Below, piece by piece: positions 5,835 to 63,789 of a stretch of DNA of 64,000 nucleotides (position 1 is its first letter; every line of letters begins with the position of its first letter). The notes below the pieces were generated by a model. That model was given only the letters and a program-made list of their open reading frames with translations, searched no databases and was not told the DNA's origin. Origin of the DNA: Prauserella cavernicola (GTDB lineage: Bacteria > Actinomycetota > Actinomycetes > Mycobacteriales > Pseudonocardiaceae); NCBI RefSeq assembly GCF_016595675.1, contig NZ_JAENJH010000007.1:248001-312000 (forward strand). Reading direction: 5' to 3'. A program made the position numbers and the translations under genes.

Positions 5835-7037
5835 TCAGCCGCCGCGCACGGCCCGGCGGGTGCTCTCGCCGAACATCGCCAGTGCGCGCAGTGCCGTGCC
5901 GAGCTCCGCGATGTCGGCGGGGTCGCCGAGCGAGCGGCCCAGTACGTCGGTGATCCGCTTGAGCCGGTGGCGCACCGTGTTGGGGTGACAGAACACGCGC
6001 TCGGCCGTGAGCTTGGTGGAGCCCTGGCTCTCGAACCACGCCCGCAGCGTCAGCAGCAGCACGTTGCTTTCCTCGCCGGGGAGTTCGAGGATCGGCCGCA
6101 GCACCTGACCGGCCAGTTGTGCCGATGCCTCGGGGTCGCTCGCGACGAGGCCGGCCAGCGGCGACTCGTGGAACTGCACCACCTCCCTGGCTCCCGGGTC
6201 CACGCTGGACAGTGCGACGCGCGCGAGGTGCAGTGCCCGCGCCGTCTCGCCGAGGCCCGTGAACACGGGGCTCACGCCGACGCGCCCGCGTGGTTGCTCG
6301 CGCAGCAGCGCCAGCACCGGCTCGGGTTCGCGCAACGACACCACGCCCACCTGCAGCTCGGGCGTCAGCCGCCAGGCCGAGGCGTGGTGCTGGCGGAGCA
6401 GCCGGTGCTCGATCAGCGGCAGCGACTCCTGGCCCAGCCCCGGGGTTTCGGCGGCCACGACCACGAACGTGCCGTCCAGCGGCAGGTCGAGCATCCGCGC
6501 GATGTCCCACAGGGTGCCCTCGGTCGCGGTGCGGCCCGCGAACAGTGCCTCGACGAGCGCGAGCCTGCGATTCTGCTGGGTCCGGCTGATCTCGGCCATC
6601 GTCTCGCGGTAGGTGGTGGTGAGCTCCTCGAGGTAGTCGTCCATCAGGGTCCAGATCGACGTCGTGACGGACACGAGCGTGGCGAGGTCCTGTGCCGGTG
6701 CGGTGAGTTCGACGCAGCACCGCCACACACCGGTGAACCCGATCCGGAACGCCGTCAGCAGTTCCGGCAGCGGAGCGCCGAGCAGCGCGCGCTGCCTGCC
6801 GGTGGCGCGCGCCTTCGACAGGTCGGGCGCGCCGGTCTCCTGCAGGGAACGGACGAGGAACTGGAGGTTGTCGCGGCACGAGGCGAGCAGTTGTTCGTGC
6901 GTGACGAATCGCTGCTCGCGATACACCGGCATGTCGTCGAGGATCAGCTCGTAGGTGGTTCTGGTCAGCTCCGGCAACCGCGACCACACCCGGGCGGCCA
7001 GTTCCGCCACCTCCGGTTCGGCGCCCGTGTAGCGCAT
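5835..7037 (-). CDS. PucR/CdaR-type helix-turn-helix regulator
   Basis: A 400-residue cytoplasmic regulator. The last 60 residues hold the PucR C-terminal HTH, with LRAWFESQGSTKLTAERVF followed by CHPNTVRHRLKRITDVLGR. The central GGDEF-like CdaR region (about 160-290) precedes it, and the N-terminal 150 residues are a helical RsbRD-like domain. Members regulate catabolic genes in response to metabolites. The ATG at 7037 has GGGGAGG about 11 bases upstream; an ATG at 7079 would add 14 residues. It ends 8 bases from the TetR stop (convergent), and its neighbour upstream is the molybdenum hydroxylase operon, its possible target. Confidence 0.88.
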   Translation of the reverse strand: MRYTGAEPEVAELAARVWSRLPELTRTTYELILDDMPVYREQRFVTHEQLLASCRDNLQFLVRSLQETGAPDLSKARATGRQRALLGAPLPELLTAFRIGFTGVWRCCVELTAPAQDLATLVSVTTSIWTLMDDYLEELTTTYRETMAEISRTQQNRRLALVEALFAGRTATEGTLWDIARMLDLPLDGTFVVVAAETPGLGQESLPLIEHRLLRQHHASAWRLTPELQVGVVSLREPEPVLALLREQPRGRVGVSPVFTGLGETARALHLARVALSSVDPGAREVVQFHESPLAGLVASDPEASAQLAGQVLRPILELPGEESNVLLLTLRAWFESQGSTKLTAERVFCHPNTVRHRLKRITDVLGRSLGDPADIAELGTALRALAMFGESTRRAVRGG

Positions 7038-7114
7038 CAGATGTCCGCCCTCCCCGTCGAGGATGCCGCGAGCAGACATCTAACACGACCGGGCGGCACC
7101 GTGCCCGCCTCAGG

Positions 7115-7152
7115 AAAAACGCCCCGCAACCGCGGAGGTTGCGGGGCGTTTT
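7115..7152 (-). terminator. Rho-independent terminator of the molybdenum hydroxylase operon
   Basis: CGCCCCGCAACC (7120-7131) pairs with GGTTGCGGGGCG (7137-7148) around a 5-base loop. A runs and T runs flank the stem, so it reads as a terminator on both strands. It lies just past the stop of the 2Fe-2S subunit gene. Confidence 0.9.
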
Positions 7153-7165
7153 CGCCGCAGCTGCG

Positions 7166-7642
7166 CTACATCTTCGCCGCCGCGGTCTTCACCGCGTCGC
7201 GGATGCGCGAGTACGTGCCGCACCGGCAGATGTTGCGGATCTCGTCGAGGTCGGTGTCGCTGATCTCCCTGCCCTGCGCGTGGGCCTGGTTGACCTTCGC
7301 GATGGCGGCCATGATCTGGCCCGGCTGGCAGTAGCCGCACTGCGCGACGTCGTGGGCGAGCCATTCCTCCTGCATCGGGTGCAAAGTGCCGGACTCGGCG
7401 TCGGCGATCCCTTCGATCGTGGTGATCTCGTCGTCGGGCCCGACCGCCGAGACCGGCACCGAGCACGGGTTGAACGCCTTGCCGTTGAGGTGGCTGGTGC
7501 ACGCCTTGCAGACGTTGATGCCGCAGCCGTACTTGGGGCCGGTGATGCCGAGCAGGTCGCGCAGCACCCACAGCAGCCGGACCTTGTCGTCGGTGTCGAC
7601 GGTGACCCGAGTGCCGTTGACCAAGAAAGTGTGTGGGGACAA
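7166..7642 (-). CDS. (2Fe-2S)-binding small subunit of a xanthine-dehydrogenase-family hydroxylase (isoquinoline 1-oxidoreductase alpha type)
   Basis: A 158-residue electron-transfer subunit. The N-terminal plant-type ferredoxin cluster shows CGINVCKACTSHLNGK. The second cluster domain shows CGYCQPGQIMA and the closing CRCGTYSRIR. Two [2Fe-2S] centres would carry electrons from the molybdenum subunit encoded just upstream. A TTG start at 7642 is preferred because GAGGAG lies 6 bases before it and no in-frame ATG exists near the N-terminus. A strong terminator follows. No FAD (medium) subunit gene is nearby, as in the isoquinoline/aldehyde oxidoreductase subgroup that passes electrons to a cytochrome or other periplasmic acceptor. 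Confidence 0.92.
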   Translation of the reverse strand: MSPHTFLVNGTRVTVDTDDKVRLLWVLRDLLGITGPKYGCGINVCKACTSHLNGKAFNPCSVPVSAVGPDDEITTIEGIADAESGTLHPMQEEWLAHDVAQCGYCQPGQIMAAIAKVNQAHAQGREISDTDLDEIRNICRCGTYSRIRDAVKTAAAKM

Positions 7643-7652
7643 CGAAGACTCC

Positions 7653-9974
7653 TCAGAACGTGTGGGCCAGGCCGTCGACCGGCGAGTCGGGAATCGGCGG
7701 CACCGTGGGCTTCGGCTCGAAGCTCAGCGTGCCGTGGTTGATGGGGAAGCGGGTCGGCATGGTGCCGGTGGCCCTGCCGTAGGCGGCCGCGGTGGCGGCG
7801 AACGCGCTGGCGACGGCCAGCTCGCCCGCGCCGCCGGGCTCGCCCGTGGTGGCGGGCAGCACCACCACCTCCAGTTCCGGCGGCGTGTTCCACTGTCGCG
7901 TGTAGAAGTAGTTGTCCCAGCTGGCTTCCAGCGGCAGTCCGTTGTCCATGTGCAGGCTCGAGGTCAGCGCCAGCGCGATGCCGTCGTTGACGCAGCCGAT
8001 GGTCTGGGCCTCCAGGCCCTTCGGGTTGATGGGCAGCCCCGCGTCCACCACGGCGGCCACCCTGGTCACGCGCGGTCCGCCCACGCCGTCGCGGATCGGG
8101 CGCTCGACGGTCTCGGGCCTGCAGTCGATCTCCACGAGCACGGCGCTGGCGCTCTTGTACTCGCAGTGGAACGCGATGCCCTGCGCCATGCCGTCGGGCA
8201 GCTCGCGGCCCCACTGGCCGACCTCGGCGGCCTTGTCCAGCGCGGTGCGGAAGCGCTCGTCCTTGAGGAAGCCGCGGCGGAACGTCAGCGGGTCCTGGCC
8301 CATCGCCGAGGCCAGCTGGTCGACCACCAGCTCGCGCGCGCACACGACGTTGGGGGAGTAGACGTTGCGCATGCTGGCCGTATGGAACTTCAGCGGCACC
8401 TCGTTGAGCAGGTTGGTGACCACCCCGAAGTTGTACGGATTGGACTGCGAGAGCAGGAACACCGTCTGCGAGAACCCGACGTCGCCCACGGGCAGCTTGG
8501 CCGCGACGGCGGTGAGGATCTCGCCGAGGCCGTGCCCGAAGTCGGTGGTGACACTGGTGTGCCGCTGCTCGTAGCTCACCACGTTTCCCAGCGCGTGGTT
8601 GACGCGGATCCGGGAGATCGACATCGGGTGGGTGCGGCCGTGGCGGGAGTCGTCGGCCCGGTGCCACATGAGCTTCACCGGCTTGCCCATCGCCTGGGAG
8701 ACCTCGGCGGCCTCCAGCGCGGCGTCGCCGAACAGCTTGCGCCCGAACGAACCGCCGCCCGTCACGACGTGCACCGTGACCGCCGGGATGGGCAGGCCGA
8801 GCATCGCCGCGATCTGTTCCTGCGCCACGATCGGCGACTTCAGTCCCGACCAGATCTCCGCGCGGTCGGCGCGGACGTCGGCGATCGCGCAGTTGGTCTC
8901 CAGCGCGCTGTTGCTGGCGAAGTTGAACACGAACTCGGCGTCGATGGTCTTGGTCAGCACGGGCGGCACCGCCATCGGCAGGGTCGCCGCGCGGAGCTTG
9001 TCCTCGACGCTGGCGTCCGACTCGCCGTCCACCGGTCCGGGTCCCCAGTCGACCCGCAATGCCCGGACGGCGTCGATGCACTGGCCGAAGGTCTCGGCCC
9101 GCACGGCCACGCCCGAGGACACCTCGACCACGTCGGTGACCCCCGGCATCGCCGCCACGGCGCCGAGGTTGGCCACCGAGCGCACGGTGCCGCTCGTGGT
9201 GGGAGGGCGGCAGATCATGGTCGGCTTCGCGTCCGGCACCGCCAGGTCCATCGTGAACTGCTTGCGCCCGGTGACGGCGTCGAGCGCGTCGATCCGCGTC
9301 GTCGGCGTGCCGATGATCCGGAACTCCTCGGCCGCCTTCAGCGTCGTGCTGACCTCCTCGGTGCGCGGGCTGGCCGCGGCCTCGGCCAGCGAGCCGTAGC
9401 TCGCGGAGTGGCCCGCGCTCGAGCGGATCATGCCGTCGCGCGCGGTGAGCGTGGCCGGGTCGAGCTTCCACTGCTCGGCGGCGGTGGTCAGCAGGCGGCG
9501 GCGAGCGACGGCGGCCGCGGTGCGCACCGGAGTGTAGAGCGAGCGCACCGAGTTGGAACCGCCGGTGAGCTGGTTGAAGACGAGCTCCGGCCTGGCGTCG
9601 GCGAGGTTCACGCCCACCTTCTCCAGCGGCAGGTCCATCTCCTCGGCGATGAGCATCGCGACGGTGGTGGTGATGCCCTGGCCGACCTCGGCCCTCGGGA
9701 CCGCGAACGACACGGTGCCGTCCCGGTTCAGCTGGATGCCGATGAGCCCGGACGTCGGCGCGGCCGCGAGCGTCAGCGCGTCGCCGAGGTCGAGCAGGTC
9801 GGCGGGCCCCGGCAGGCTGGGGATCGCGGCCTCGGCCGGGGTGTCCGAGCTCAGGTCGGCGCCGAGCCGCGCCGCGACCGCCAGGGTCGGTGCCGCGAGC
9901 AGGTAGCCGAGGAACCGGCGCCGTTCGAGGGCCGGAGCCCCGTCGCGCCGGGGCGATCGCCGTTGATGCGCCAT
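7653..9974 (-). CDS. Tat-exported molybdopterin-binding large subunit (isoquinoline 1-oxidoreductase beta type)
   Basis: A 773-residue catalytic subunit of the xanthine oxidase family. A twin-arginine leader (RRRFLGYLLAAPTLAVAARL, residues about 18-37) indicates export of the folded cofactor-loaded enzyme. Recognisable pieces are EVGQGITTTVAMLIAEEM, GGSFGRKLFGDAALEAA and the C-terminal GEPGGAGELAVASAFA, the loop with the Glu that serves as catalytic base in this family. The ATG at 9974 has AAGGA 6 bases upstream. It is co-transcribed with the 2Fe-2S subunit, 10 bases apart. The substrate is unknown; relatives hydroxylate N-heterocycles or oxidise aldehydes. XdhC-like maturation factors are not in the window. 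Confidence 0.92.
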   Translation of the reverse strand: MAHQRRSPRRDGAPALERRRFLGYLLAAPTLAVAARLGADLSSDTPAEAAIPSLPGPADLLDLGDALTLAAAPTSGLIGIQLNRDGTVSFAVPRAEVGQGITTTVAMLIAEEMDLPLEKVGVNLADARPELVFNQLTGGSNSVRSLYTPVRTAAAVARRRLLTTAAEQWKLDPATLTARDGMIRSSAGHSASYGSLAEAAASPRTEEVSTTLKAAEEFRIIGTPTTRIDALDAVTGRKQFTMDLAVPDAKPTMICRPPTTSGTVRSVANLGAVAAMPGVTDVVEVSSGVAVRAETFGQCIDAVRALRVDWGPGPVDGESDASVEDKLRAATLPMAVPPVLTKTIDAEFVFNFASNSALETNCAIADVRADRAEIWSGLKSPIVAQEQIAAMLGLPIPAVTVHVVTGGGSFGRKLFGDAALEAAEVSQAMGKPVKLMWHRADDSRHGRTHPMSISRIRVNHALGNVVSYEQRHTSVTTDFGHGLGEILTAVAAKLPVGDVGFSQTVFLLSQSNPYNFGVVTNLLNEVPLKFHTASMRNVYSPNVVCARELVVDQLASAMGQDPLTFRRGFLKDERFRTALDKAAEVGQWGRELPDGMAQGIAFHCEYKSASAVLVEIDCRPETVERPIRDGVGGPRVTRVAAVVDAGLPINPKGLEAQTIGCVNDGIALALTSSLHMDNGLPLEASWDNYFYTRQWNTPPELEVVVLPATTGEPGGAGELAVASAFAATAAAYGRATGTMPTRFPINHGTLSFEPKPTVPPIPDSPVDGLAHTF

Positions 9975-54331: not shown

Positions 54332-55219
54332 TCAGCCGGCGGCGGCAGCGGCAGGGCGCGCGGTCCGCGCGAGCCGGACGAGCAGCGCGCCCACCAGCAC
54401 CGCGGCGGCGAGACCGCCGACCACCGACACCGCCGCGGCCGGTGTCGCGACGGCGATCCACGCGATCGCCCAGGCCACGGCGAGCGTGAACCCGGCCACG
54501 GCCCGCGCCTGACCGCGCAGGATCACCCAGAGCGTGGCGGCCGTCGTCGCGGCCACGGCCAGCGCCGCGAGCACCGTCGCGACCTGGCCGGAGGGGGCCA
54601 GTCCCTCGGCGGCGGCGGTGGTGGCCGCGCCCGCCACCGCGGCGGCGAGCACCCAGCCCGTGTAGATCGTCACCGGGGTGTACACGAACAGCCGGTCGGC
54701 CCAGCCCTGCGCCGGAATCCGGCTCAGCCTGGTCCAGGTAAGGGCGAGCACCGCGAGCAGCGCCACGATCACGACCTCGGCCGCGAGGTACTGCCGTTGG
54801 GTGAACAGTGCGATCCAGCCCGCGTTCAGCAGACCCGCGACCGCCAGCGGCCAGCCGCTGGCGCGATGCAGGTCGCGGCCCCGCTGCGCGGGCAGCACCT
54901 GCCGCACGGCGAGCGCGAACGTGGCGACGTAGATCAACGACCAGATGAGAAACGCCGTGCCCGCGGGCAGCAGCAGAGTCGGGTAGGCGCGGGCGACCTC
55001 GCCGACGGGCTCGCCGAGCGCACCGCTGCCGCCGAGGGCTCCCGCCACGATCTGGAGCAGCATCGCGAGCAGGACGGCGCCGGACCTGACGAGGTCCGAC
55101 CTCGTGCCGACGGGGCGCGAGAGCCCACGGGGGTGGTCGTGCACTGCGGTCTTTTCCGGGACGCGGGCACCCGCCAGCGGGCGCCCGCGAGGATCGTGCT
55201 GACGAACGGGATCGCTCAC
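54332..55219 (-). CDS. TspO/MBR-related multi-helix membrane protein
   Basis: 295 residues. About eight helices follow a 48-residue hydrophilic N-terminal part. WSLIYVATFALAVRQVLPAQ and the next helix AGLLNAGWIALFTQRQYLAA follow the tryptophan-bearing pattern of TspO-like proteins, which bind tetrapyrroles, but the protein is longer than the usual five-helix TspO. The GTG start overlaps the upstream anti-sigma-like gene stop by GTGA. TspO identity is probable, not certain. Confidence 0.65.
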   Translation of the reverse strand: MSDPVRQHDPRGRPLAGARVPEKTAVHDHPRGLSRPVGTRSDLVRSGAVLLAMLLQIVAGALGGSGALGEPVGEVARAYPTLLLPAGTAFLIWSLIYVATFALAVRQVLPAQRGRDLHRASGWPLAVAGLLNAGWIALFTQRQYLAAEVVIVALLAVLALTWTRLSRIPAQGWADRLFVYTPVTIYTGWVLAAAVAGAATTAAAEGLAPSGQVATVLAALAVAATTAATLWVILRGQARAVAGFTLAVAWAIAWIAVATPAAAVSVVGGLAAAVLVGALLVRLARTARPAAAAAG

Positions 55220-55641
55220 GATGGGGAAGGCGGGGCCGCCGCCCTCGGCCGGGGCGGGGCGGCCTCGCGGGGGTGTGCCCCCTGGACCACGGTGACGTCG
55301 GCCCACAGGGTCACGCACTCCCGACGTTCGATGCCCCAGGCCCGGGCGACCTTGTCGAGCAACTCTCCGGCTCGGCCGAGGTCAGTGGTGGGGAACGAGG
55401 CGGTTTCCACCTCGGTGCGCAACGTGTGGCCGTCGGGACTGATCAGGCGAACCATGAACGGCTGACCCGCCTGCAGCCAGGCGATCGTGGCGAGTTCGTT
55501 GGACACCAGCAGCGCATCGATCACCTGCGCTTCCGGGGTGTCGGTCAGCATCGCGCGGACCCGTCGCCGCAGTGTGGCGAGGTCTTTGGGGCCGTCGATG
55601 ACTCTGATCGGTGCCTGGTCGGGAATTCCGGCTCCGGGCAT
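55216..55641 (-). CDS. Anti-sigma/histidine-kinase-like ATPase-fold protein, degenerate
   Basis: 141 residues. VIDALLVSNELATIAWLQAG resembles the N-box helix of RsbW/SpoIIAB-type ATPases (E-L-x-x-N-A), but the Asn is absent, and the G1 box D-x-G-x-G is not seen. The tail is Pro/Ala-rich. It may bind a partner without ATP. The ATG at 55641 has GGAGG 10 bases before it. Coupled to the TspO-like gene, next to STAS and SpoIIE genes. Confidence 0.6.
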   Translation of the reverse strand: MPGAGIPDQAPIRVIDGPKDLATLRRRVRAMLTDTPEAQVIDALLVSNELATIAWLQAGQPFMVRLISPDGHTLRTEVETASFPTTDLGRAGELLDKVARAWGIERRECVTLWADVTVVQGAHPREAAPPRPRAAAPPSPS

Positions 55642-55740
55642 GGTCACGCTCCCTCCGCTGGTGGCTCAACGTCGGACACGCGGTCAAATACCCGGAACGA
55701 CCGGTTGTGAAACGTGTTTCCGGTTTTTGTTGACGGCGCG

Positions 55741-56151
55741 TCAGGAAGACGCGGGCGCGGCGCCGACCGACGCGAGGGCGGCCGCACGGCTGGTGAAGGT
55801 CGGGAAGTGGCCGGCGAGGCCGAGGATGGCCAGCGGGCGCAGCACCGGCGCCGAGTCGGCGACCAGTGCCAGTGGCGCGCCGCGGCTGTTGGTGAGCTCG
55901 AGCAGGTCGAGCAGGGTCGAGACACCCGCGGCCGCGCAGAACCCCACGCGGGTCAGGTCGAGGACGAGGGCGGAGGTGGTCTCGTCCGGCAGCGCGCGGA
56001 TCTCGGCGTCGAGCGCGGGCGCCGTCGCGGCGTCGAGTTCGCCCACGACGGTGGCGAGCAGACAGCCGTTGCCGCTGCTGGTGATCGTCACGGAGAGCAG
56101 ACCGGGATCGCGCGGCGGTCCCAGCGACGATCTACGGGGTATCTGTTTCAC
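55741..56151 (-). CDS. STAS domain protein lacking the phospho-serine
   Basis: 136 residues. The STAS strand-helix pattern is clear (LLATVVGELDAATAPALDAE, SALVLDLTRVGFCAAAGVST). Where RsbV-type proteins have D-S-T/S-G, this one has A73-A74-A75-G76, so kinase control by phosphorylation at this site should be lost. GTG start at 56151 after GGGAGCGCAC. It could be a constitutive binder or a non-phospho sensor. Confidence 0.82.
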   Translation of the reverse strand: MKQIPRRSSLGPPRDPGLLSVTITSSGNGCLLATVVGELDAATAPALDAEIRALPDETTSALVLDLTRVGFCAAAGVSTLLDLLELTNSRGAPLALVADSAPVLRPLAILGLAGHFPTFTSRAAALASVGAAPASS

Positions 56152-56389
56152 GTGCGCTCCCGTCCGGTACCGCTCATCCGGGTCGCCATGCACAAAGCGC
56201 GCCGCCGAATGAGCGGCAGTGAGTCGAGGTCGACCGGCGAAAACGGTCGGTGCACCGCAGAGAACAGCCGGTGCTCGTCCGACGGTACGCGCCACCCCCC
56301 GCCCAAGGTCAACCCCGGCCGCTGCCGCACGATCACGCCCGTCGGCGTTAGAGTCGGCAGGTCACCCGCATCGTCACGAGGAGTGCGCC

Positions 56390-57700
56390 ATGGACGCGGC
56401 GCTCGATCGCCAGCCAGGGGACTCGTCGGCGCAGGCCAGGGCGTCCGCGGACGTCGCGTGGCGGCATGTCGCGTTCCTGTTGGAGGCCTCGCGTCAGCTG
56501 GCCGGGTCACTCAACGTGCGCAGGACGGTTCTGCGCTCGCTGCGCCTGGCCGTGCCGTATCTCGGCGAATGGGTGATGCTCGCGATCTTCGAGGGCAGAG
56601 GGGCCACGTTCTACGCCTGCGGTGGAGACGGCGTGATGTCCGAGCCGGTGACCGTCGACCGCGTCCCCGAGGACTCCGCGCTCTGGCGCATCGGCAGGGT
56701 GGGCAGGACCGAACTGCTGCACGTCGCGCTCGAGCGCGACCCCGAGGACGGGCTCGGCAGCCTCATCCCGGACGAGGGCCTGCGTGCCGCCGCGGCGACG
56801 CTGCGCCCCGCCGACGTACTGGGTGTCGGACTCAACGCGCGGGGCTCCACGGCGGGCGCGCTGGTCGCGGTCCGCGCCGCCGGAGCGGGCTACGACGAGC
56901 CCGACGTGGAGATCGCGGAGGAGTTCGCCCGCCACGCGGCGATGGCGCTCGACAGCGCCCGGCTCTACGAGGAGCGCGTGCACACGTCGGCGACCCTGCA
57001 GGCGAGCCTGCGCCCGCCCGAGCTGCCCGTGGTGCCGGGTGCACGGATCGCGGCCCGGTATCGCGCCGCGCACGCACAGCTGGACATCGGTGGCGACTTC
57101 TACGACGTCCACGGCGAGCCCGGGGACACCTCGGTGGTGGTCGGCGACGTCTGCGGCAAGGGCGTCGAGGCCGCCGTGCTCACCGGCAAGGCCCGCCAGA
57201 CCATCAAGACCGCCGCGCGGTTCGACCGCTCGCCCGCCTCGATCCTGGCCGCGCTCAACGATGTGCTTTACGCCGATCACTCCGACCGCTTCGTCACGGT
57301 CGCGTGCGTGCGCGTGCGACCCGGCTCCGGGGGCGCGGGAGCGGTCGCGACGGTCGCCGTGGCCGGGCACCCGCCGCCGCTCGTGCTGCGGCGCGACGGA
57401 ACGGTCGAGGAACCCGACGTCAGCGGCACGCTCTCGGGCGTGCTGCCCGACCTGAGCTATCGCGAGACCGAGGTGTGGCTCGCGCCCGGCGACGCGATGC
57501 TGCTCTACACCGACGGTGTGTACGAGGCGCGCGGCCGCGACGACTTCTTCGGACAGGAACGGTTGCGCGAGCTGCTGCCCGGCTATGCGGGCGCGAACCC
57601 CGAGACGCTGTGCGAGGTGGTCGAGCAGCGCGTGGTCGAGCACCTCGACGGCGCCGAGCACGACGACATCGCCCTGCTGGCACTGAGGATCGGAGACTGA
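56390..57700 (+). CDS. GAF-SpoIIE (PP2C) serine phosphatase
   Basis: 436 residues. A GAF-like sensor spans about 25-185. The PP2C/SpoIIE domain spans about 215-432, with HAQLDIGGDFYDVHGEPGDT, VVVGDVCGKGVEAAVLTGKA (metal Asp residues), MLLYTDGVYEARGRDDF and EHDDIALLAL. It would dephosphorylate a STAS anti-anti-sigma factor; the intact one is encoded two genes downstream. The ATG follows ACGAGGAGTGCGCC. First gene of a three-gene operon. Confidence 0.93.
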   Translation: MDAALDRQPGDSSAQARASADVAWRHVAFLLEASRQLAGSLNVRRTVLRSLRLAVPYLGEWVMLAIFEGRGATFYACGGDGVMSEPVTVDRVPEDSALWRIGRVGRTELLHVALERDPEDGLGSLIPDEGLRAAAATLRPADVLGVGLNARGSTAGALVAVRAAGAGYDEPDVEIAEEFARHAAMALDSARLYEERVHTSATLQASLRPPELPVVPGARIAARYRAAHAQLDIGGDFYDVHGEPGDTSVVVGDVCGKGVEAAVLTGKARQTIKTAARFDRSPASILAALNDVLYADHSDRFVTVACVRVRPGSGGAGAVATVAVAGHPPPLVLRRDGTVEEPDVSGTLSGVLPDLSYRETEVWLAPGDAMLLYTDGVYEARGRDDFFGQERLRELLPGYAGANPETLCEVVEQRVVEHLDGAEHDDIALLALRIGD

Positions 57701-57705
57701 CACCC

Positions 57706-58734
57706 ATGCCGACCACGACGGAGCCGGTCGTCCGGCAGCTGCCCCAGTTCGAGCGTGCGCTCGCCGAGGGCGATGCCGGGACGGCCGTCGGCATCGTGGA
57801 CGAGCTGCTCGACAGCGGCGTCGAGCCGGCGATGGTCATGATCGAGTTGATCAGCGAGGCGCAGCGGCGCATCGGCGACCGCTGGCAGCGTGGCGAGTGG
57901 TCGGTGGCGCAGGAGCACACGGCGACCGGCGTCTCGGTGGCGGCGACCGAGGCGATCGCCCGCCGGGTGCGCGCGACGCCGGTGAGCCGCGGCCGGATCG
58001 TGATCGGCTGCGCCGAGCGCGAGTGGCACGCGCTGCCCGCGCTCGTGATCGCCACCGGGCTGCGCGAACGGGGCTGGAACGTCACCTTCCTCGGCGCGTC
58101 CACACCCGCGGACCGGCTCTCGGCCTACCTGCACGACCTCGGTCCCGATGCCGCCGCGGTCAGCTGCTCCATCGTGGGCGCGCTGCCGAGCACGCGACAG
58201 TTCATCGAGGCGAGCACCGGCGCGGGGATCCCCGTCGTCGCGGGCGGCGCGGCGTTCGGGCCCGACGACCGCAGGGCACGGGCACTCGGCGCCACGGCGT
58301 GGGCGCCGGGGCTGCGGGAGGCCGTCGAGATCGTCGACACCCTGCCCGCCGTGGTGGCGCCCGCCGAACCGCTGCCCGCCGCGGCGCTGGCCGAGCAGCA
58401 GGGCCTGGAGCTGGCCCACCGCACGGTGGGAGAGACCTTGCGCGAGCGCTGGCGCCCGCAGGACGCGTTCGCGCCGGGCACGGCGAAGCACGCGGACCTG
58501 GTGACGGTGGCGCGCGACTGCGTCGACCAGTCGCTCTACACCCTGCAGGGGGCGTTGCTGACCGGTGACGGCCGGATCGTGCGCGACACTGCCGGCTGGG
58601 TGGCGGCGCTGCTCGCGGCCAGGGCCGTGCCCGGTGACTCGGCGCCGGAGCTGGCCGGTGAGCTCGCGCGTGTGCTGCGCGACTACCCGCGCGCGGTCGA
58701 GCTGCTGCGCGCGCACTGGCCGGAGCGGTCATGA
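57706..58734 (+). CDS. Stand-alone cobalamin-binding CarH-like photosensor domain protein
   Basis: 342 residues. The helical bundle (about 15-90) carries W60-x9-E70-H71 (RWQRGEWSVAQEH), the hallmark of CarH/LitR adenosylcobalamin light sensors. The Rossmann-like B12 domain (about 92-215) has E106-W-H108-A-L-P, the cobalt-ligand His region. A C-terminal helical domain of about 110 residues (HADLVTVARDCVDQSLYTLQ onward) replaces any DNA-binding part; there is no HTH. It lies 5 bases after the phosphatase gene and overlaps the STAS gene by ATGA, so it likely modulates partner switching. Light sensing is inference; other B12 roles remain possible. Confidence 0.85.
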   Translation: MPTTTEPVVRQLPQFERALAEGDAGTAVGIVDELLDSGVEPAMVMIELISEAQRRIGDRWQRGEWSVAQEHTATGVSVAATEAIARRVRATPVSRGRIVIGCAEREWHALPALVIATGLRERGWNVTFLGASTPADRLSAYLHDLGPDAAAVSCSIVGALPSTRQFIEASTGAGIPVVAGGAAFGPDDRRARALGATAWAPGLREAVEIVDTLPAVVAPAEPLPAAALAEQQGLELAHRTVGETLRERWRPQDAFAPGTAKHADLVTVARDCVDQSLYTLQGALLTGDGRIVRDTAGWVAALLAARAVPGDSAPELAGELARVLRDYPRAVELLRAHWPERS

Positions 58735-59051
58735 CCCTGCGGGTCACGGTCAGCGAGACGGTGGAGGGCCCCGAGGTCGCGCTCGCGGGCGACCTTGCGC
58801 TGGACACCGTCGGCCGGCTGCGCGGCGAGCTGATCAAACTGGTGGGCTCCGCGGAGCCCGGCACCAGGGTGCGGGTGGATCTCTCGGGGCTCACGCTGCT
58901 GGACTCCAGCGGACTGAGCGTGCTGATCACCGCCCACAAGATCGCGGTGGAGCGCGGCGCTTCAGTGGTGCTGGCCAGCCCTCCGGATCACGTCGAGCGC
59001 ACCCTGCGGATCACCGGCCTGCACGAGGTCCTCGACATCGCCGTGTCGTGA
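58731..59051 (+). CDS. STAS anti-anti-sigma factor
   Basis: 106 residues. RVRVDLSGLTLLDSSGLSVL has the phosphorylatable Ser59 in D58-S59-S60-G61. In partner switching the unphosphorylated form binds the anti-sigma kinase and frees a sigma factor. Coupled to the cobalamin-domain gene by ATGA. The cognate anti-sigma and sigma are not adjacent; the ATPase-like protein at 55216 is a weak candidate. Confidence 0.92.
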   Translation: MTLRVTVSETVEGPEVALAGDLALDTVGRLRGELIKLVGSAEPGTRVRVDLSGLTLLDSSGLSVLITAHKIAVERGASVVLASPPDHVERTLRITGLHEVLDIAVS

Positions 59052-59143
59052 TCCACGCCACTTTCAGGTGTAGTCCTCGATGTGCGGGGTAGTTGATCTC
59101 CGGCCCGTGTCGGGGCGGGCCCTTCGACCGCTCGCACAGAGAG

Positions 59144-59172
59144 GCGCCGGTGATCTCAGAGGTCACCGGCGC
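59144..59172. terminator. Terminator between the STAS and MerR-B12 genes
   Basis: A 10-bp perfect stem GCGCCGGTGA/TCACCGGCGC with a 9-base loop, overlapping the MerR-B12 stop codon, serves two convergent genes. Confidence 0.65.
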
Positions 59173-60037
59173 TTCGGTCGTTCAGGGGCAGGACGTCCAG
59201 CGCCGAGTCCAGGTCGTTGACCACCGTGAGCTCCGTGGTGGCGGGGTTCCAGCCGGGCCCGGCGAGATACACGGTCCGCCCGCGCGCGGCGAGTGTCCCG
59301 GCGAGGCCGGTGTCGGCGGTCGCGGTCGTCATCGCCCACAGCAGCACCGCGGCAGGGTCCAGCCGGTCCGCCAGGTCCAGCGTCATCACCCGGCCGGCGG
59401 GCGCACCGGTGAAGACGGCGGCCACGCCCCGTTCGGCCAGCGCCGCCCTGAGCACCTCCAGCGGTAGCACGTGGTGCTCGCCGGGGCACGGGGCGAGCAG
59501 CACGGACCCGACCGTGCGCGCGGGTCCGCGGGCATACGTGTGGCGGTTGAGCGCGGCCGAAATCTCGGCGGCGAGGCCCCATTCGATGGCGAAGCACTCC
59601 TCGCCGCGCTCCCAGCGCGTGCCGAGGCTGCGCAGTACCGGCGCCGCCACGTTCTGCCAGGTGCTCGCGGCGCCTTCGGCGGCCAGCGACTCGTCGAGGG
59701 CGGTCGCCATCGTGGCCAGCCGCAGTTCCTCCGTGGCCTCCTCGAGTTCGAGCCCAGAGCCGGGGGCGAGCGCGCCGCCGGCGCTGCCGCGCACGGCCAG
59801 CGCCGCCTCCCGGGTGCGCACGCCCTCGTCGATGAGCTGGCGCATGCGCCGCAGCCGGGCGACGTCGGAGTCGGAGTAGCGCCGCTGCCTGCCCTGCACC
59901 CGCACCGACGGCCCGATGCCGTAGCGCGCGTCCCAGCTGCGAAGGGTGATCGGCGAGACACCGAGAAGTCGTGCGACCCGGCCCGGCGTCCACAACGCCG
60001 GCTGCCGCGTCTCCGTGCCGCCTGCCCCGGAGTTCAT
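59156..60037 (-). CDS. MerR-family regulator with cobalamin-binding domain (CarH/LitR-like)
   Basis: 293 residues. The MerR HTH is LWTPGRVARLLGVSPITLRS followed by WDARYGIGPSVRVQGRQRRY. A helical bundle has W142-x9-E152-W153: the His of the W-x9-EH light-sensor motif is Trp here. The B12 domain has CPGEHHVLPLEVLRAALAER, with E187 and H189 in the cobalt-ligand region. CarH binds DNA as an adenosylcobalamin tetramer in the dark. The lost His suggests altered light response or different ligand use. The ATG at 60037 is chosen; upstream context is weak. Divergent from an NmrA-like gene, its likely target. Confidence 0.88.
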   Translation of the reverse strand: MNSGAGGTETRQPALWTPGRVARLLGVSPITLRSWDARYGIGPSVRVQGRQRRYSDSDVARLRRMRQLIDEGVRTREAALAVRGSAGGALAPGSGLELEEATEELRLATMATALDESLAAEGAASTWQNVAAPVLRSLGTRWERGEECFAIEWGLAAEISAALNRHTYARGPARTVGSVLLAPCPGEHHVLPLEVLRAALAERGVAAVFTGAPAGRVMTLDLADRLDPAAVLLWAMTTATADTGLAGTLAARGRTVYLAGPGWNPATTELTVVNDLDSALDVLPLNDRSAGDL

Positions 60038-62112: not shown

Positions 62113-62181
62113 GCGCGCCCGGCCGACGGGGTCACGGACATGCCACACGAACATCGTCTTGGCGTCGGGCAGAATGCACCT

Positions 62182-62973
62182 ATGGTCAGTGAGCAGGAAT
62201 GGGTGAAGGAGCGGCAGCTCTTCGCCGGTGTCGCGCCGTCGGCCGACCAGGCCGCGGCGGAACCGTGGACGGGCCCGCTGGCCCACGAGTTCGCGAAGGT
62301 GGCGCATCTGCTCCTCGACAGTCCCACCGTGGCGGGTGTGCTCGACCGGGTCGTGGGGGCGGTGAAGGCGCTGGTCCCGGAGGCCGACTTCGTCAGCATC
62401 ACCTTGCGCACCAAGGAGGGCCGCTACACCACGCCGGTGCGCACCGACGAGCTGGCCGACCGGCTCGACGAGCTGCAGTACACCTTCGACGAGGGTCCGT
62501 GCGTGCACGCCACCCGAACGTCGGGTGAGGGCATCGTCGACGTGCCCGACGTGTCGGCGGGCCCGTGGCCGCGCTGGGCGAGTGAGGCGGCCGCGCTCGG
62601 GGTCGGCAGCGTGTTCGCGGTGGGCCTCGTGCCCGCCGACGACCCGCCGCGCCTCGGTGCACTGAACCTGTACTCCCGCCAGTCCCACGCGCTGGACAAG
62701 GTCGACCGCGATCTGTCGATCGTGCTCGCCAGCCACGCGACGGTGGCACTGGCGGCGACCACGGCGATGACGTCGGCCGAGTTCGAGCACGCCCAGCTGC
62801 GTGCCGCGCTGGAGAGCAGGGACGTGATCGGTCAGGCGAAGGGCATCCTGATGCAGCGGCGCGGGCTCTCCGCCGAGGGGGCGTTCGACCTGCTGCGCCG
62901 CACGTCGCAAGACCTCAACATCAAGCTCGCGAAGGTCGCGGAGCTGTTCGTGAACAGCAGGCACGACATCTGA
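62182..62973 (+). CDS. GAF-ANTAR transcription antiterminator
   Basis: 263 residues. The GAF domain (about 35-180) includes ADFVSITLRTKEGRYTTPVR, and the ANTAR domain (about 195-260) begins LRAALESRDVIGQAKGILMQ and has RRGLSAEGAFDLLRRTSQDL. ANTAR proteins bind tandem hairpins in nascent RNA and let transcription pass a terminator. The start is uncertain: ATG at 62140 or 62182, the latter with only a weak GGGCAG. A hydroxylase or ligand is sensed by the GAF part; not known. Confidence 0.9.
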   Translation: MVSEQEWVKERQLFAGVAPSADQAAAEPWTGPLAHEFAKVAHLLLDSPTVAGVLDRVVGAVKALVPEADFVSITLRTKEGRYTTPVRTDELADRLDELQYTFDEGPCVHATRTSGEGIVDVPDVSAGPWPRWASEAAALGVGSVFAVGLVPADDPPRLGALNLYSRQSHALDKVDRDLSIVLASHATVALAATTAMTSAEFEHAQLRAALESRDVIGQAKGILMQRRGLSAEGAFDLLRRTSQDLNIKLAKVAELFVNSRHDI

Positions 62974-62997: not shown

Positions 62998-63789
62998 TCA
63001 GGCGCGTAGCGACAGCGACATGAGCGGGTCGGTGGTCGGCTGCGGCGAGCCGCCGTCGGGTTCCACGGTGACGCCGAGCACGTCGGTGCCGTCGGGCAGG
63101 GCGGCGACCAGCGGCTGGCGGTCACCTCCGCCGGCGTCGGGCATCAGCGCCATGGACCTGGCGCCGCCGGGCCCGATCGCCCACAGCTGGTGCACGTGAC
63201 CCGACGGTGCCTCGGGCATCCGCTCGGGCATGAGCACCGCCCTGCCCTCGCTGCGCGACACCACGGCGGTCATCGCCGCGCCGTCCGCGGAGCCGTGCAC
63301 GACGTGCGCGTCGGGGGCGTAGAGCACGCTCGCCATGGCGGCGCCGCGCTCACTCGCCTGCTCGAGCCGCTGTTCGGCCTGGTCCAGCTGCTGGTTCGTC
63401 CGTACCGTCACCACACCGAGGCCGGTCGCGAGAGCGAGCGCCGCCACCGCGGCCGCCACGGCGATCCGGGTGACGAGGCGGCTCCGGTCCCGGCGCGCGG
63501 GGAACGGCACGACGGTCGTCTCGGGCGGATCCTGCCGGGTGCGCGCGATCTCGTCGAGCACCCGCTGCCGCAACGCCGGAGGCGGTTCCGCCGCGGCGGC
63601 CTCGCCGAGCCGGGCCGCGGTCGCGGTGAGCTCGCGCACCTCCTGAGCGCACGCCTCGCAGCCGGCGAGGTGCTCCTCGAAGGCGGTGCGTTCGGCCTCG
63701 CCGAGCGCGTGCACCGCGTACGCGCCGGTCAGCGTCGCCATCTCGCCGTCGGCACCGTCCATGCCTTCCACGCCGTCCACGTCACTCAT
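62998..63789 (-). CDS. rskA: Anti-sigma-K factor RskA
   Basis: 263 residues. The N-terminal zinc-type anti-sigma region has H40-x3-C44-x2-C47 (HLAGCEAC). One membrane helix lies at about 112-130 (AVAAAVAALALATGLGVVTV). The outside RskA domain contains GHVHQLWAIGPGGARSMALM. It holds the sigma factor at the membrane until regulated proteolysis. The ATG overlaps the sigK stop by one base (TGATG), so the pair is co-translated. Confidence 0.92.
   Translation of the reverse strand: MSDVDGVEGMDGADGEMATLTGAYAVHALGEAERTAFEEHLAGCEACAQEVRELTATAARLGEAAAAEPPPALRQRVLDEIARTRQDPPETTVVPFPARRDRSRLVTRIAVAAAVAALALATGLGVVTVRTNQQLDQAEQRLEQASERGAAMASVLYAPDAHVVHGSADGAAMTAVVSRSEGRAVLMPERMPEAPSGHVHQLWAIGPGGARSMALMPDAGGGDRQPLVAALPDGTDVLGVTVEPDGGSPQPTTDPLMSLSLRA

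Follow-up and report, generated by a model that had tools for sequence, protein, structure and literature searches.

The window analysed here is a stretch of 64,000 nucleotides from the actinomycete Prauserella cavernicola (contig NZ_JAENJH010000007.1, positions 248,001 to 312,000), and our subject is a three-gene operon within it that joins a serine phosphatase, a cobalamin (B12) protein and a STAS protein. The first gene (56390..57700, plus strand, ATG at 56390) encodes a GAF-SpoIIE serine phosphatase of the PPM/PP2C type with 436 amino acids, recognised by Pfam, fold and conserved aspartates. The second (57706..58734, plus strand, ATG at 57706) encodes a B12 protein of 342 amino acids, which phmmer, a structural model, a fold match and residue alignments assign to the photocobilin type, and the third (58731..59051, plus strand, ATG at 58731) a STAS anti-anti-sigma protein of 106 amino acids, identified from TIGR00377, STAS_2 and its sequence. 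According to the open reading frame (ORF) list and the sequence, 5 bases separate the phosphatase stop from the ATG of the B12 gene, whose stop overlaps the STAS start in an ATGA; this spacing argues for a single transcript of all three genes. A gene for a MerR-B12 regulator of 293 amino acids (60037-59156, minus strand) is convergent with the operon and lies 104 bases from the STAS stop. A preliminary description of this DNA had reported the tight operon and its convergent neighbour, along with the motifs W60-x9-E70-H71 and E106-x-H108 in the B12 protein and Ser59 in the STAS protein, and the ORF list and sequence bear out all of these.

The phosphatase matches Pfam SpoIIE at 8.5e-47, and its GAF match is weak (0.003, below the cut-off). 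Its model has a predicted local distance difference test score (pLDDT) of 92.5 and a fold resembling the SiaA PP2C domain and the RsbU-RsbW domains of Rv1364c. Among 42 sequences D236, D253 and D426 are invariant and D375 and D425 are conserved in at least 90%; the two alignments used across the analysis, A2 and A3, comprised the window sequence with 48 and 41 relatives, respectively. With a predicted PPM fold and the metal-binding aspartates present, the product fits the class of partner-switching phosphatases. The STAS protein scores 58.1 bits against TIGR00377 (cut-off 53.45) and 5.9e-18 against Pfam STAS_2; with an intact D58-S59-S60-G61, and hence a phosphorylatable Ser59 in its DSSG motif, its sequence fits the SpoIIAA/RsbV type.

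Identity of the B12 protein and its known relatives

Photocobilins are the top matches of the B12 protein in the PDB (phmmer; 8j2w 2.1e-57, 8j2x 2.5e-57, 8j2y 4.4e-45), the match to 8j2w spanning residues 16-330, and they are followed by a Chloracidobacterium B12 protein (8jbs, 1.7e-18) and then by CarH (5.8e-9). Pfam recognises B12-binding (4.1e-16) and B12-binding_2 (4.4e-13), and no helix-turn-helix family matched the 342 residues in Pfam. The AlphaFold model, built from 49 sequences, is of high confidence (mean pLDDT 95.6, predicted template modelling score 0.91) and matches five photocobilin chains (8J2W/8J2X/8J2Y) over its whole length, with template modelling (TM) scores of 0.80-0.82 by query length and 0.83-0.86 by target length, whereas the next-best chain is a lone B12 domain (TM 0.53 by query length). 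The model thus comprises a B12 helix bundle and Rossmann domain (about 14-210) and a globin-like C-terminal domain (about 225-338); the latter escaped both Pfam and the preliminary description, and was recovered by sequence match, model and fold match. Folding the C-terminal domain, a check which that description had itself proposed, therefore yielded a globin-like domain of the photocobilin kind. Its view of the protein as a stand-alone CarH/LitR receptor stripped of its DNA-binding domain does not hold, given the 8j2w match and the whole-length fold; sequence and model together identify a photocobilin, that is, a B12 domain joined to a globin-like bilin domain.

The closest characterised relative, SasPcob of Saccharothrix syringae (8J2W/8J2X), is likewise a stand-alone B12 and globin protein lacking a DNA-binding domain (37-38% identity in the fold alignment), and both proteins carry W-x9-EH, E-x-H and a tryptophan in the globin domain, Trp296 in SasPcob. 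AbDPcob of Acidimicrobiaceae (8J2Y; 4.4e-45) has the same two-domain sensor, but its output is a fused GGDEF cyclase and that of the window protein a separate phosphatase. CarH and LitR (5C8A, 5C8D, 3WHP) resemble it in their B12 domains and light motif (5.8e-9 to 1.8e-8). The domain make-up of CarH, with a MerR DNA-binding domain but without a globin domain, is the reverse of that of the window protein. AerR/PpaA (7TE2), a stand-alone B12 regulator that has neither a DNA-binding nor a globin domain and acts on CrtJ, matches weakly in sequence (0.0034). In the systems of YtvA and RsbP/RsbU, light or stress signals pass through STAS or PP2C proteins to SigB, with flavin or PAS sensors rather than cobalamin.

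The preliminary description had taken a route from cobalamin and light to a partner switch to be undescribed. It is in fact anticipated in print, though not shown: in Zhang et al. 2024 (PMC10979010), one sentence based on STRING networks suggests an interaction of SasPcob with SpoIIE and STAS proteins, and the function of stand-alone photocobilins is said there to be 'less clear'. Our literature search returned no other link between photocobilins and partner switching and no phosphatase experiment with a photocobilin; a 2022 photoglobin paper, outside its scope, may show gene context, and the words STAS, SpoIIE and sigma factor do not occur in the text of PMC11796333. What the present analysis adds are counts for the conservation of the pair, loci with a sigma factor and ATPase, and a clade without the bilin-anchoring aspartate, a residue variant for which the literature examined held no description.

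Conservation of the phosphatase–sensor pair

At 1e-3 the B12 protein has matches in 37 of 60 genomes, its own included (17 of them below 1e-35), and at 1e-20 in 65 of 394 genomes of the class. The matches listed include Prauserella, Saccharomonospora, Amycolatopsis, Actinokineospora, Umezawaea, Pseudonocardia and Kribbella, as well as Mycobacterium/Mycolicibacterium, Nocardia, Micromonospora, Actinoplanes and Streptomyces. For gene context we used 120 close loci, selected for their nearness to the window protein: 20 of the 21 non-own matches below 1e-35 in the 60-genome search, 20 matches from the class search, mostly strong, and the best 80 of 549. Four duplicate loci were dropped in the unique counts, and a further 20 loci came from among the weaker matches of the class search. 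Loci were scanned with profiles made from the window proteins and their relatives, and a SpoIIE gene was counted as upstream if it ended within 400 bases on the same strand.

118 of the 120 close loci (114/116 without duplicates; L038 and L050 are the exceptions) have a SpoIIE gene directly upstream on the same strand, at a median gap of -4. A STAS gene lies directly downstream in 55 of the 120 (53/116 without duplicates), overlapping by 4 bases in 33 of these 55. Split by the residue that anchors biliverdin in SasPcob, loci with the aspartate have SpoIIE in 59/59 and STAS in 39/59, and loci without it have SpoIIE in 55/57 and STAS in 14/57. The residue type of the window protein (Arg/Lys at position 137, no Asp) is represented by 52 distinct loci, a count that already leaves out L049 and L110 as lying outside the clade; 51 have SpoIIE, 13 STAS and 8 a nearby sigma factor. 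The phosphatase, B12 and STAS triad had been put forward as a unit to be sought in other genomes: its sensor and phosphatase are indeed conserved as a pair in near loci, but the directly downstream STAS gene is found in just 55/120 of them and 13/52 of the window's own type.

SpoIIE matches number just 5 in the own genome, and in a tree of 65 SpoIIE proteins the 49 linked to photocobilins group together, apart from the 16 others, with the exception of one partial, very long-branched own sequence that falls among the linked ones. This tree also splits along the photocobilin types, requiring 4 changes for 3 groups against a mean of 30 in shuffles (quick search), and the atypical aspartate-less L049 is placed among the Asp rows in both the photocobilin and the SpoIIE trees. 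Such parallel trees fit modules inherited as units but are no proof of contact. The phosphatase is probably the output of the sensor. Natural fusions were considered as proof of contact and dropped, since the ORFs scanned held none joining SpoIIE to a photocobilin or a photocobilin to STAS; the 13 mixed ORFs combine SpoIIE with HATPase, one of them also with STAS.

Some loci depart from the common arrangement. One genome (G024) holds three photocobilins of the aspartate-less type (L034, L035, L038), one of them without a SpoIIE partner. L050 encodes a relative in which Ala replaces the adenosine-stacking Trp, and SpoIIE is missing directly upstream. L103 and L104 (about 6977-9173), counted in addition to the 55 loci with STAS, form a tandem photocobilin pair between SpoIIE and STAS. 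The distant proteins of L206, L209 and L212 lack at least one Trp or His residue of the light motif or the cobalt ligand, and L206 retains its upstream SpoIIE.

Cofactor residues and the aspartate-less clade

Residues were compared in a hand-counted alignment in which 6 is added to the 8j2w chain position to give the published SasPcob numbering, with W61, E71, H72, H108, H137 and W296 as anchors. The residues of the cobalamin site are almost without exception retained: E70, H71 and H108 in all 119 distinct near sequences (window included) and W60 in 118/119. W298, the equivalent of SasPcob Trp296, is kept in all 118 that have a letter there. The bilin site differs. Asp270, which touches biliverdin rings A-C in SasPcob (PMC10979010), aligns with Cys272, and His137, which reaches across from the other monomer to the biliverdin propionate, with Arg137.

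Asp occupies position 272 in 61 of 118 near sequences, and of 119 sequences 61 have His and 55 have Arg at position 137. These two sites vary together, with His and Asp paired in 58 sequences, Arg and no Asp in 54, and other combinations in 7; the 54 include one sequence cut short (L153), which has a gap at 272 and was counted as 'no Asp'. In a tree of 73 of the 119 sequences (quick search, columns 137 and 272 retained), the window protein falls in a 32-row clade with support 98 and zero Asp at 272, and the Asp label requires 3 changes. Among the 20 more distant sequences position 272 is Asp in 10, another residue in 9 and a gap in 1, which implies that the aspartate was lost, or was absent from the outset, elsewhere too.

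The aspartate is not strictly defining, as the photocobilin AbPcob has His in its place; PMC10979010 describes AbPcob as a poor binder of biliverdin, and gives an occupancy of about 20% for full-length AbDPcob, which also has His there. Because the bilin-anchoring Asp is absent, the window clade may be B12-only or bilin-weak. Since the clade keeps the residues of cobalamin photochemistry and lacks this anchor, its sequences suggest that the window protein is probably a B12-only sensor.

Proposed light input to a partner switch

The reading that we favour by a modest measure is that a photocobilin-type light receptor acts on a SpoIIE-STAS partner switch and, through it, on a SigB/SigF-type sigma factor. 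In the dark, by analogy with SasPcob, adenosylcobalamin would be bound via His108 in a head-to-tail dimer, with Trp60, Glu70 and His71 at the adenosyl pocket. Light would break the Co-C bond and open the dimer, as is known for SasPcob, and the light form would then contact the co-made GAF-SpoIIE phosphatase and alter its activity. An increase seems most likely because light-state photocobilins raise diguanylate cyclase activity, SasPcob doing so in trans according to PMC10979010. The phosphatase would dephosphorylate the STAS protein at Ser59, and this protein would then bind an RsbW-type kinase encoded elsewhere in the genome and so free the sigma factor. Given the missing aspartate, the receptor would probably sense with B12 alone.

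Gene order, family, predicted fold, residues and conservation of the pair come from the analysis itself, as does a sigma factor near the pair in some relatives; each step of binding and signalling, and the sign of the effect, is inferred. In eight Actinokineospora and Amycolatopsis loci the same strand carries a SigB-type sigma factor and an ATPase no more than about 4.6 kb away. Six from Actinokineospora (L117, L118, L119, L123, L092=L142, L151) and one from Amycolatopsis antarctica (L113) share a same-strand cluster in the order ATPase, SigB-type sigma factor, STAS, ATPase, SpoIIE, photocobilin, STAS; in Amycolatopsis palatopharyngis (L120) the order is ATPase, sigma factor, SpoIIE, photocobilin. 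The suggestion in the preliminary description that the signal reaches a sigma factor gains context from these eight loci and from the 118 conserved pairs.

Several points weigh against this interpretation. Neither a sigma factor nor an intact RsbW-type kinase was found beside the window operon, and likeness failed to single out the target: two SigBFG proteins of the own genome pass the curated cut-off (a third reaches 214 bits against 234), the sigma factors of the relatives' clusters are 50-55% identical to both, and with the two about equally near, orthology cannot pick between them. The 22 HATPase_c_2 matches over the cut-off in the genome are not necessarily anti-sigma kinases. A strict SigB-type promoter pattern precedes SpoIIE in 0 of 117 loci. 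Conserved gene order is a sign of co-inheritance, not of contact. Of the extra 20 loci, 10 have SpoIIE upstream and 3 have STAS downstream; SpoIIE is missing from the 10 weakest, so that the pair marks a large actinobacterial subgroup and not every photocobilin-like protein, and W60, E70, H71 and H108 are all retained in 17 of these 20 distant sequences. One genome of the same genus (G003) has zero matches to the B12 protein. AbDPcob remains dimeric in light, so the dimer-to-monomer step is not general (PMC10979010). Finally, a downstream STAS gene is less common in the window's type (13/52) than across the whole set, and in three-frame translations judged by eye it is damaged in both sister genomes carrying the operon, with a frame change after the conserved core in L031 and a heavier loss in L032. 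This breakage weakens the STAS step in the genus Prauserella, not the sensor–phosphatase pair.

The STAS counts bear on an explanation in which SpoIIE and the photocobilin work together on a different STAS protein or target, while the STAS gene that follows them in this genus is on its way out. The pair is far steadier than STAS (118 against 55 of 120), and STAS is broken in P. flavalba and a third genome of the genus; yet the window STAS is intact with its Ser59, and where STAS is present a 4-base overlap is seen in 33/55 loci, so that we hold this explanation to be somewhat unlikely. Less probable still is that the B12 protein senses adenosylcobalamin supply or redox state, the phosphatase relaying B12 status instead of light. 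The cobalamin-binding residues are all kept while the bilin anchor is lost, as such a sensor would allow, but W-x9-EH, the motif that binds the photolabile adenosyl group, is conserved as well, in 118/119 near sequences, and the nearest characterised relative is a photoreceptor.

We also consider it improbable that bilin is still bound in an altered pocket, by Cys272 or other contacts and with Arg137 to the propionate, making the protein a two-pigment photocobilin like SasPcob. The globin fold and Trp298 are kept, Arg could stand in for His137 as a cation, and the genome has one heme oxygenase gene; against this are the zero Asp at 272 in the 32-row clade and the poor biliverdin binding of AbPcob with its His (PMC10979010). 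Heme oxygenase matches, present in 20 of 33 genomes searched, point in the same direction, being strong (<1e-30) in 13/20 Asp-type against 3/9 genomes with only the aspartate-less type, although the genomes are too few to decide the matter and the remaining four are mixed or atypical.

More tentatively, and with rather less than an even chance in our estimate, the aspartate-less, B12-only branch may have become the dedicated input of the SpoIIE-STAS switch, so that a SigB-type sigma factor of actinomycetes would respond to light captured by adenosylcobalamin; this would be a cobalamin counterpart of the flavin-based light input to SigB. On sequence grounds, a familiar kind of sensor occurs here in a conserved arrangement and with a residue variant; its genomic link to sigma factors has become clearer, and its function is predicted. 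The near-constant SpoIIE partner in close relatives, the sigma factor and kinase loci and the anchor-less sub-branch turn the question of stand-alone photocobilins into a testable proposal, namely that a stress or development sigma factor responds to light or B12 and that bilin was dispensable in one lineage. It would also provide a light-driven, soluble phosphatase switch.

The MerR-B12 protein encoded next to the operon matches MerR_1 (1.9e-14), with its B12 domains under the Pfam cut-off, and reads W-x9-E-W, so that the EH histidine is missing, a point that the preliminary description overlooked, and E-x-H kept; it matches CarH 5c8d at 1.9e-13 and reaches 70.9 bits against the NCBIfam CarH cut-off of 400. 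In a search with a mixed B12 profile, in loci extending at most about 8 kb from the gene, the only ones of the 120 with a MerR-B12 gene next to the operon were those of the two other genomes in the genus (one present twice, L031 and L112). The tie to the system implied by the preliminary description is not supported, and we rejected the gene as a member because its adjacency is confined to the genus and its EH histidine is missing. L036 has another MerR-B12-type match at a distance of about 5 kb, and the MerR-B12 gene of L032, too, looks eroded.

Divergent from the operon are two minus-strand genes. That at 55744..56154 (start uncertain) encodes a STAS protein without a phosphate site (Pfam STAS 8.5e-14), in which CAAAG replaces LDSSG in the alignment and the Asp-Ser is lost. 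That at 55219..55647 encodes an ATPase-like protein, perhaps a degenerate RsbW kinase; its family assignment is weak, with zero Pfam or NCBIfam matches, a phmmer match of 9e-5 to an HATPase-type ORF in L048, and both the N-box Asn and the G1 Asp absent from the alignment. The two (55219-56154) may be a partner-switch pair that has decayed or been repurposed. Divergent STAS/HATPase genes occur at a comparable place in some loci of Mycobacterium and Streptomyces.

Ahead of the ATPase-like gene lies a SigB/SigF-type promoter-like element, GTTT-N16-GGGTAT (55688..55713, minus strand), following a consensus taken from the Streptomyces SigB-type promoters of GTTT/GGGTAT form tabulated in PMC8346170. 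It is the sole exact GTTT-N(13-18)-GGGTAT in the window (1 against 0.01 expected from shuffles), and P. flavalba has identical hexamers, spacing and place with a different spacer. Its position suggests that part of the locus may itself be under a SigB-type factor, and we count the element in favour of the proposed partner-switch reading. Across all loci the pattern occurs at 18 sites against 5 in a single random draw, most of them uninformative. Further along the window, a GAF-ANTAR protein (62140-62973, plus strand; ANTAR 2.2e-22) adjoins an RskA-type anti-sigma protein (62998-63789, minus strand; 8.4e-28).

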